59,308 bases of DNA from SAR92 bacterium BACL16 MAG-120619-bin48 (lineage in GTDB: Bacteria > Pseudomonadota > Gammaproteobacteria > Pseudomonadales > Porticoccaceae): NCBI GenBank assembly GCA_001438605.1, contig LIDE01000020.1:1-59308 (forward strand). Reading direction: 5' to 3'. The notes under the pieces were generated by a model that ran no database searches, was not told where the DNA came from, and worked only from the letters and a program-made list of their open reading frames with translations. How positions within the stretch are numbered: the stretch's first letter is position 1; each line of letters starts with the position of its first letter. Position numbers and translations under genes: made by a program. Shown in pieces: positions 10,253-13,811 of this stretch.

Positions 10253-11203
10253 ATGCGCAGCCTCGGTCAATATATATTACTTTTTTCCAAAGGCTTGGCG
10301 ATGGGCGCCGCTGATGTGGTGCCCGGTGTGTCCGGCGGCACTATTGCATTTGTTAGCGGTATCTATGCCGAACTGATCAATACCATTAAATCACTGAATA
10401 TTCAGGCGCTTAAGACCTTGAAGTCTGAGGGGATCGGCGCGGCGTGGAAGCATATCAACGGTAATTTTTTAGTGGTCTTGCTGGGCGGTATTTTAACCAG
10501 CCTGTTTTCCCTCGCCGTTGTAATGCAATATCTGTTGGCCGAGTATCCGCTGCCAGTCTGGTCATTTTTTGTGGGTCTTATTATTGGCTCAGTGATCTAT
10601 TTGTTGCGCCAACATCCGCTGAAAAATAATCGCGATAGACTTTTATTTTTGGCTGGCACTGCAATTGCCTGGGGTATTTCGATGGCGCCCTCTGTGCAGC
10701 TTGAAGGCACGCTTCTGATCATGTTCTTTGCCGGCAGTATTGCACTCTGCGCGATGATTTTGCCAGGGATCTCTGGGTCATTTATTTTAGTTCTGCTGGG
10801 CTTGTATCCAGTTTTTATCGGGGCGATTGCCGATTTTAATCTGCAAATACTGGCTGTTTTCGCTCTTGGCGGCATTCTTGGTCTAATGCTGTTTAGCCGA
10901 TTGTTGTCTTGGTTGTTGACGCATTATGAAGCGGCCGTTATCGCTATGATGTGCGGATTTCTTGTCGGCAGTTTAACCATTATTTGGCCGTGGAAAGAGG
11001 TTTTACAATCGGTTGTCAGTCATTCAGGTAAAACCATTGTGTTAGCATCACAGAATCTTTGGCCGAGTCAGTACAGCCAAGTGGTGGGTGCCGATCCGAA
11101 AACCTTGGTTAGCTTTTCAGCGATGGCGTTTGGCTTGCTGTTGGTGTTGGTGTTGGAATATGTTGGTGCACGATCGCAGAAAAAATCTTTACAGGTGGGC
11201 TAA
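10253..11203 (+). CDS. DUF368 family membrane protein, probable polyprenyl-phosphate carrier
   Basis: A 316-residue integral inner-membrane protein with about eight or nine hydrophobic segments. The signature GAADVVPGVSGGT is near the N-terminus (about residues 19-31), and a related LPGISGSFILVLLG lies in the second half; such a paired PG-SG motif is characteristic of DUF368. Some members (PopT) are reported to recycle undecaprenyl phosphate across the membrane for cell-wall synthesis; assigning that role here is by family. It sits between pcm and nlpD, a place empty in Escherichia coli and Pseudomonas. An SD (CTGGAG) precedes the ATG. Confidence 0.88.
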   Translation: MRSLGQYILLFSKGLAMGAADVVPGVSGGTIAFVSGIYAELINTIKSLNIQALKTLKSEGIGAAWKHINGNFLVVLLGGILTSLFSLAVVMQYLLAEYPLPVWSFFVGLIIGSVIYLLRQHPLKNNRDRLLFLAGTAIAWGISMAPSVQLEGTLLIMFFAGSIALCAMILPGISGSFILVLLGLYPVFIGAIADFNLQILAVFALGGILGLMLFSRLLSWLLTHYEAAVIAMMCGFLVGSLTIIWPWKEVLQSVVSHSGKTIVLASQNLWPSQYSQVVGADPKTLVSFSAMAFGLLLVLVLEYVGARSQKKSLQVG

Positions 11204-11204
11204 T

Positions 11205-12026
11205 GTGTCTCCCGTCACGACTGGCTTAATGGGCATTAGATCGCGCAGCGTCGCACTTTTAAGTGCGCTCGTTATGGCCTTGCTAGTGTCGGGTTGCAGT
11301 TCTCTTGCGCAAAATCATGCTGCGCCGGTAAGTGCGCGCGTGCAGCCGCCGAGTAAAAAAATTCAAGTGCATCAGGTTGAAGCGGGAGAAACCCTTTATT
11401 CAATCGCTTGGCGTTACGATTTGGACTTCCGCCAATTAGCGCGAGCCAACGGTATTCGCGCGCCTTTTGTGATTAACCGGGGTCAGTTGATTTCACTCGA
11501 CACTAGCAAAATCAGAGAGACCGCAGTAGCATCCGCCCCGGCACCGGTGGAAAAGACGGCTGCCAAATCCACCCGTTCGGGCGCTCCGATTGTTGTCAAA
11601 AAACCTTTAAAAACAGCGTCTGTGCCGCGTGCGGCAGAGAAGCCTGCGGCAACGTCCGAGCCAATATATGCCACAGATTGGCAGTGGCGATGGCCGGTAA
11701 AAGGCAATGTCGTTGAATCTTTTAATCCCGATGATCTGCGCAAGGGCATCAAAATTAAAGCGGTCAGTAATTCCGCTGTTCATTCCGCCGCCCCCGGCGT
11801 TGTTGTTTATGCAGGAGAGGGTTTACGTGGCTATGGTAAGCTGGTTATCATCAAACATAGCGAGACGCTTTTGAGCGCGTACGCGCAGAATGCGCAACTT
11901 CTCGTTAAAGAGGGCCAGAGTATTAAACAAATGGAGATTATTTCCAGATTGGGGTCTAATGGCACTCTTCATTTCGAAATACGCAAGGATGGCTATCCAG
12001 TTAACCCTGCAGCGTATTTGAAGTGA
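11205..12026 (+). CDS. nlpD: NlpD-type lipoprotein, amidase activator
   Basis: An outer-membrane lipoprotein that in relatives activates the amidase AmiC at the septum. The signal peptide ends in a lipobox (LLVSGC). A LysM domain follows (VEAGETLYSIAWRYDL to INRGQLISL), then a linker rich in Ala, Pro and Lys, then a LytM/M23 domain to the end. The M23 domain is degenerate: the usual first metal-ligand motif reads KGIKIKA and the final one TLHFEIR, so metal binding is unlikely, as in NlpD. The frame is open from 11088; I chose GTG 11205, with AGGTGGG just upstream and one base after the DUF368 stop. ATG 11229 is the alternative. Confidence 0.9.
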   Translation: MSPVTTGLMGIRSRSVALLSALVMALLVSGCSSLAQNHAAPVSARVQPPSKKIQVHQVEAGETLYSIAWRYDLDFRQLARANGIRAPFVINRGQLISLDTSKIRETAVASAPAPVEKTAAKSTRSGAPIVVKKPLKTASVPRAAEKPAATSEPIYATDWQWRWPVKGNVVESFNPDDLRKGIKIKAVSNSAVHSAAPGVVVYAGEGLRGYGKLVIIKHSETLLSAYAQNAQLLVKEGQSIKQMEIISRLGSNGTLHFEIRKDGYPVNPAAYLK

Positions 12027-12211: not shown

Positions 12212-13135
12212 GTGACGGATGAAGCGTTAATACTAGATGAAGAAGATCCAGATGTAACCGATATTCAAGAAGAATTGTCGGAATCAAGCCATCAAATCAT
12301 TGATGCAACCAGTATCTATCTCAAAGAAATTGGTTACACGCCGCTACTGACGGCACAAGAAGAAGTCTTCTATGCCCGGAAATTTCTCAAGGGCGATGAA
12401 TCAGCACGACACCGAATGATTGAAAGCAATCTGCGACTGGTTGTTAAGATTTCGCGCAGGTACGTCAATCGTGGTCTCGAATTACTCGATTTAATTGAGG
12501 AAGGCAATATCGGCCTGATGCGTGCGGTTGAGAAATTTGACCCCGAGTTGGGTTATCGGTTTTCAACCTACGCAACCTGGTGGATTCGGCAGACCATAGA
12601 GCGGGCGCTGATGAATCAGACTCGTACTATTCGCTTGCCCGTCCATGTGGTGAAAGAGCTCAATGTCTACGTGAGAGCAAGTCGCAAGCTAGCTCAGCGC
12701 TTGGATCACAGTCCTACGCCAGAGGAAATCGCTGCGGAGGTCGATAAGCCGGTTGCAGATGTGCTCAAAATACTCAGTCTCAGCGAGCGTATTTCGTCGA
12801 TTGATATTCCCATCGCGGACAATGAAAAAAGTTTGGTTGAAACGATTTCCGCGAGTAGTTCCTTTTGCCCTGATCGTGAGATTGAGAGCAATGATCTTTC
12901 CGAGGCGCTCAATGAGTGGCTGTGCCAGTTGCCGGAAAAACAGCGTGAAGTTTTGGTGCGACGATTTGGCCTTCTCAATCACCAATAAGAGACTCTCGAA
13001 CAGGTTGGCCTTGAAATTGGGCTCACCCGCGAGCGAGTTCGGCAGATCCAAGTTGATGCGCTTCGGCGGCTACGTGAAGTACTGCGAAAAAATGGCCTTA
13101 ACGGTGATGTCTTGTTCGAAGAGCTGGATGACTAA
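12212..13135 (+). pseudogene. rpoS: RNA polymerase sigma factor RpoS, interrupted by in-frame TAA in region 4
   Basis: Stationary-phase/stress sigma factor. Region 1.2 ([16 protein letters not shown]), region 2 ([33 protein letters not shown]) and region 3 are intact. At 12986-12988, inside region 4 after RRFGLLNHQ, a TAA ends the frame. The same frame then continues without a stop for 48 codons to TAA 13133-13135 with conserved region 4.2: [20 protein letters not shown] and [14 protein letters not shown]. The made product would be 258 residues and lack the -35-binding helix-turn-helix. One base change from CAA, GAA or AAA explains it. I chose GTG 12212, with AAAGGGG 8 bases upstream, over TTG 12176. 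Recent null allele, readthrough and sequence error are all open. Confidence 0.85.
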
Positions 13136-13193
13136 CGGCTCTTAAATTAAGATCATGAACGCCTTTGTGTGGTCGTGGCTGGAGCGAGACAAT

Positions 13194-13224
13194 AAAAAAC
13201 CCCAGTGAAGTGCTGGGGTTTTTT
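13194..13224. terminator. Bidirectional rho-independent terminator between rpoS and ppa
   Basis: The stem CCCCAG (13200-13205) pairs with CTGGGG (13213-13218) over a 7-base loop. It is preceded by A6 and followed by T6, so it works in both directions between these convergent genes. Confidence 0.9.
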
Positions 13225-13231
13225 ACATTCT

Positions 13232-13290
13232 TTTACTTCTTATGTGCAGATTACTCTGCTCTTTACTTCTTGTAAGCAGATTACTCTGCT
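13232..13290. repeat. Tandem 30-bp duplication at the 3' end of ppa
   Basis: Two 29-base copies, 13232-13260 and 13262-13290, share TTTACTTCTT and GCAGATTACTCTGCT and differ at only three or so central bases. The second copy contains the ppa stop and its last codons; the first lies just after it and repeats them. It looks like a local slippage duplication. Confidence 0.85.
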
Positions 13291-13811
13291 AGGTACCGCT
13301 CACGCGAGGCAATAACTTCAGCGCGGGCTGAGGCTGCATCTTCCCAGCCATCAACTTTTACCCACTTTCCAGGCTCCAGCGCTTTGTAGTTCTCGAAGTA
13401 GTGAACGATCTGCTTCAGTAATAATTCGGGCAGATCAGAACATTCCTGAACGTGATCATAAATTTTTGTCAGCTTGCTGTGCGGGACGGCCAGTAATTTG
13501 GCGTCAATACCGGACTCATCTGTCATTTTCAATACGCCAACAACGCGGCTGCGAATCACTGAGCCAGGCATAACCGGATACGGCGAAACAACCAACACAT
13601 CTAGTGGGTCACCGTCTTCAGACAGCGTTTGCGGGATGTAACCGTAGTTGGCTGGGTAAAACATAGGCGTTGCCACAAAGCGATCGACGAACATCGCGTC
13701 ACTGTCTTTGTCGACTTCATACTTGATGGGGTCGTGGTTGGCAGGGATTTCAATAACAACGTTAACGTCATTTGGCAGATCTCTGCCGGCGGGAATGTCT
13801 TTATAGCTCAT
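13281..13811 (-). CDS. ppa: Inorganic pyrophosphatase
   Basis: Family I soluble pyrophosphatase, hydrolysing PPi to drive biosynthesis. The 176 residues carry the substrate- and metal-binding motifs [42 protein letters not shown] and VPHSKL. The length is that of bacterial hexameric enzymes. It is convergent with rpoS across a bidirectional terminator. The final codons and stop lie in a 30-base tandem duplication; the protein is unaffected. Confidence 0.97.

Follow-up and report, generated by a model that had tools for sequence, protein, structure and literature searches.

In Escherichia coli, loss-of-function alleles of rpoS have been associated with growth when nutrients are scarce (PMC2763269, PMC7527412), and mutations in the gene can improve nutrient acquisition while reducing stress resistance (PMC3484664, PMC2763269, PMC7527412). 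The natural frequency of such alleles is clouded by the fact that nulls can stem from laboratory handling: in a natural E. coli collection, RpoS-null strains made up only 2% and were traced to such handling (PMC3484664). The earlier note on this DNA had stated that rpoS acquires null alleles in other species under growth selection; this precedent stands (PMC2763269, PMC3484664, PMC7527412), with the restriction that such alleles are rare in nature according to PMC3484664. The codon-33 amber allele of E. coli rpoS is, like the allele described here, a single nonsense change, but its stop is near the gene start, and translation of a shortened protein can begin downstream of it (PMC2763269). The stop described here is in region 4, near the gene end, and in another lineage. 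Sigma-S without its C-terminal region 4 was reportedly studied in vitro by Gowrishankar et al. 2003, and is said to have kept activity on supercoiled templates. Those mutants resemble the present locus in that the -35-reading part of sigma-S is lost; they were, however, made in the laboratory by deletion of region 4, whereas the product predicted here would lose only the second part of that region.

The window (the whole stretch of DNA analysed, 59,308 nucleotides with a G+C content of about 50-52%) is contig 20 of the SAR92 bacterium BACL16 MAG-120619-bin48 genome, which comprises 2,527,476 bases in 111 contigs and is 99.58% complete and 0.26% contaminated. A rhodopsin gene is present in this genome (145 bits), and the host is probably a marine gammaproteobacterium. 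An obviously broken mutS was looked for and rejected: the mutS match has no internal stop and begins at a contig start. The features of the rpoS locus are as follows:

11160..12023, + strand: nlpD-like gene (LysM and M23 peptidase domains), upstream of rpoS; named by domains and place
12212..12985, + strand: 258 codons of rpoS upstream of the stop, covering regions 1.2, 2 and 3 plus the initial part of region 4; profile matches
12986..12988, + strand: in-frame TAA stop; frame reading, with a sense codon in 40/40 aligned relatives
12989..13132, + strand: 48 open codons in which region 4.2 is still encoded (Sigma70_r4 positions 22-50); profile match
13133..13135, + strand: TAA, the ordinary end of rpoS; frame reading
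13193..13225, + strand: terminator-like hairpin and T run 3' of rpoS; consensus match only (four such sites in the region, compared with a mean of 1.0 in shuffles)
13281..13811, - strand: ppa, inorganic diphosphatase, downstream of rpoS; profile matches

Upstream of rpoS are the nlpD-like gene, a polyprenyl-phosphate-transporter-like gene, pcm and a truD-like gene, and ppa follows downstream; the proximity to pcm and an nlpD-like gene is the neighbourhood expected of rpoS. The nlpD-like frame scores under every NCBIfam cut-off (ActS, 152.9 of 375 bits; NlpD, 150.2 of 311 bits).

Read in the rpoS frame, the gene opens at GTG 12212 and has 258 sense codons before the in-frame TAA at 12986-12988, the residues directly before which are ...[10 protein letters not shown]. 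A further 48 codons ([21 protein letters not shown]...ELDD) are open up to the TAA at 13133-13135. Because the RpoS model TIGR02394 is passed by a match spanning the stop (417.5 bits against a curated cut-off of 378.7), and because the PDB entries that match best are chains of RpoS, among them 5ipl (query 3-257 to chain 26-283), the frame is assigned as rpoS. By itself, the 258-residue piece scores 353.4 bits on the same model, under the cut-off. The GTG start position is common to the near relatives G028, G048 and G047 (the window genome is labelled G000 in all comparisons, relatives G and loci L). A lost start codon was considered and rejected: the ATG of many relatives corresponds to an ACG in G000, but these three relatives share the GTG just upstream. 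A second rpoS copy was likewise rejected, as the genome yields, at the thresholds used, the rpoS match and one RpoD-level match only.

Sigma-70 regions 1.2, 2 and 3 are entire. Region 4 is not complete in any single RpoS product, since the TAA divides the domain: the part before the stop covers positions 1-18 of the 50 in the Pfam Sigma70_r4 profile (15.8 bits, under the family cut-off) and the part after it positions 22-50 (36.9 bits, over the cut-off). These results agree with the earlier note, which had placed a TAA in region 4, proposed that it removes the helix-turn-helix there, and read region 4.2 in the 48 open codons beyond. As predicted from the frame, region 4.2 would be lost from the product. 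This second part of region 4 carries the helix-turn-helix by which the -35 element is read, and it helps to hold sigma to the polymerase.

The comparison with close relatives that the earlier note had called for was made in a genus alignment with rows from 40 of the 49 other genus genomes. At the stop column these have Glu (33/40), Gln (6/40) or Arg (1/40), and none has a stop, so that relative to intact relatives the TAA is the kind of inactivating change that defines a null allele. The genomes absent from the alignment are G043 and G010 (missed by the anchor pattern), G011, G034 and G012 (not entered), G041 (cut by a contig end), and G008, G032 and G040 (without a full rpoS); Glu is also found at this position in G043, G010, G011, G034 and G012 by unaligned reading. 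Outside the genus, 47 of 80 loci were checked, and region 4.2 is open in 45 of them (three of which were initially set aside by the search pattern and were open on reading); one locus is cut by a contig end. The remaining locus, L083 of a Pseudomonadales MAG, is interrupted by a TAA that falls in region 4 of rpoS, a few codons past the position of the window's stop.

Decay was scored as departures, residues that differ where the other intact relatives of the genus are all identical. Under this strict rule G000 has none, the 38 intact genes have 0 to 2, G033 has 11 and G009 has 3; under a looser rule, in which one dissenting relative is allowed, the values are 0, 0 to 4, 12 and 3, respectively. 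The window rpoS thus lacks, under both rules, the departures at invariant sites expected of a pseudogene. G033 (L119), from another species of the genus, is a close parallel in form: it also has a single in-frame TAA in an otherwise open rpoS frame, but its stop is much earlier, and with 11 departures compared with 0 in the window it is judged to be a decaying copy. The departures and stop in G033 indicate that decay of rpoS occurs within the genus. For G009, decay is not clear (3 departures against an intact maximum of 2 or 4, depending on the rule), and of the three stop-bearing genes that of G033 alone is clearly decayed.

Substitution patterns point in the same direction. Compared pairwise with five relatives, G000 has a pN/pS of 0.09-0.12 upstream of the stop and of 0.07-0.12 downstream of it; the corresponding values in five pairs among those relatives without G000 are 0.06-0.09 and 0.03-0.10. 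The slightly higher values with G000 are to be read with its long branch and with synonymous sites near saturation. With G024 as outgroup, the part before the stop has 12 unique amino-acid-changing and 39 unique silent changes in G000, compared with 5 and 27 in G048. As a control for relaxation, the three-way count was extended to all frames common to the window, G048 and G024: on the G000 side, N/S is 0.28 (14 to 50) for rpoS and 0.32 for the 34 other window frames pooled, and on the G048 side it is 0.29 for both. The raised share of amino-acid changes expected of a pseudogene is therefore not seen; by these counts the G000 branch is longer overall, and rpoS is no more relaxed than the remaining frames. 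This likeness to the other frames implies that the whole frame stayed under selection along nearly the entire G000 branch, and the conservation of the codons after the stop implies that full RpoS was under selection until recently, one of the options given in the earlier note; the absence of departures is in keeping with this.

A TIGR02394 profile search of 112 family genomes, with rpoH and pcm as control genes, places the window allele in a wider series. An RpoS-level match (314 bits or more; counted by eye, with G071 and G041 covering only part of the profile) is found in 86 of the 112 genomes, and three of these 86 matches, in G000, G009 and G033, contain an in-frame stop. In the same genomes, among the matches listed, no stop is found in rpoH (0/102) or pcm (0/108). 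The excess in rpoS gives p = 0.024 against both controls together (one-sided Fisher) and is not significant against rpoH alone (p = 0.094), and it depends on just three codons, one in each of three draft genomes. In G009 (L120), a 1.2-Mb relative, the stop is a single TGA within the segment corresponding to YATWWIRQ of the window; the rpoH, pcm and ppa matches of this genome have no internal stops.

Twenty-six genomes have no RpoS-level match, and the stretch following pcm was fetched for 15 of them. In nine of the 15 (G052, G063, G064, G075, G082, G090, G100, G105 and G106) an nlpD match is followed by other frames, with no rpoS match and no run of N longer than one base in the stretch. These nine genomes span five survey genera (g2, g6, g10, g11 and g14), and since four of the five (not g2) include members with an RpoS-level match, several of the losses in the family are probably independent. 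Behind nlpD, rpoS is found in pieces in different frames in G081 (L192) and G107 (L196), the latter also with a stop; these putative frame breaks are as read from the drafts. The absence of rpoS was rejected as real loss in G008, G032, G040 and G098, where the contig ends. Taken from these genomes, the pattern is that rpoS is loss-prone in this family, with breaks and losses recurring. No paper on rpoS loss in this group was found in the open-access literature.

Our interpretation of the window rpoS, which we hold to be probable, is that it is a very recent nonsense null allele. If the base is real, sigma-S would end after the first part of region 4 with the second part missing, the truncated protein would lose most of its activity, and the null would raise nutrient uptake and lower stress resistance, as described for E. 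coli; we infer this gain and its cost by analogy with that species. What stands against a null allele is that the gene has no other sign of relaxed selection, so that the stop cannot be separated from an error in the consensus or a minority allele. The main rival is accordingly that the TAA is a wrong consensus base or a minority allele in the assembly and that rpoS of the species is intact. We regard this as a rather unlikely reading that nevertheless has to be taken seriously: the genome is a draft in 111 contigs, the window rpoS has no signs of decay, and the finding comes from a scan, which preferentially picks rare single errors. An error-riddled assembly was rejected by comparison of the window with non-overlapping G048 frames of at least 90 residues and at least 50% identity. 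Three of 47 such frames were flagged with a stop (6/51 with G047 and 3/31 with G024, also non-overlapping), and rpoS is the sole one of the 47 in which the stop is well inside the frame. Of the other two, one aligns from a point that still overlaps the preceding frame and meets its stop after 30 residues, and the other has a stop 9 residues before the frame end; besides rpoS, the G047 and G024 flags fall, as judged from coordinates, at the beginning or end of a frame or antisense to a G048 frame. A first pass that included overlapping frames had flagged 19/66 (G048), 29/84 (G047) and 16/51 (G024), mostly short or antisense frames. Wide sequence error thus appears unlikely, and the family survey, with stops in rpoS and none in rpoH or pcm, also speaks against the error reading; a single wrong base at the stop is possible, as the frame comparison has no power over one base.

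Two further readings keep the TAA and a working sigma-S. The shortened protein could still function but select promoters differently, favouring for example those not needing -35 contacts; regions 1.2, 2 and 3 are whole, and the in vitro work on sigma-S without region 4 reported for Gowrishankar et al. 2003 would offer a precedent. We consider this improbable, because the stop is inside region 4, away from any domain edge, because the codons after it have been kept, so that the short form cannot long have been the selected one, and because a stop is absent from this column in all 40 aligned relatives. Alternatively, the stop could be read through to give full-length RpoS at a useful level, as the earlier note had also proposed. 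A general case for the readthrough of in-frame stops in prokaryotes has been argued (PMC7918605), and the codons after the stop are conserved, but a young stop predicts this conservation equally. The genome checks give readthrough no support: no tRNA with a stop anticodon is among the 36 tRNA genes found and typed, and the three release-factor-domain matches contain no internal stops (a check that covers internal stops in these matches), so that within this scope no tRNA or release-factor change reading TAA was found. The 72 bases after the stop show no stronger fold than shuffled sequence (z = 0.51). Readthrough is the least probable of the readings weighed here. A combined form, in which the stop would gate sigma-S, with mostly the short form acting at promoters without -35 contacts and a little full-length protein made by readthrough, and with the family graded into intact, gated, broken and missing, is scarcely more probable.

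Nonsense alleles of rpoS, of which the very recent null allele favoured here would be one, are already a known kind; more useful, and worth following, is the pattern across the family, in which erosion of the gene is graded. A family in which rpoS is found intact, freshly stopped, decaying, fragmented or missing would make it possible to ask under which conditions loss is favoured and what replaces the gene in the general stress response.

In four of the rpoS-less genomes, G052, G105, G100 and G106 (L190, L195, L197 and L198), the next long frame after nlpD resembles a membrane H+-pyrophosphatase, a likeness based on Pfam for G105 only and on sequence likeness for G052, G100 and G106. The window carries the soluble diphosphatase gene ppa near the place where these rpoS-less relatives have the H+-pyrophosphatase-like frame.
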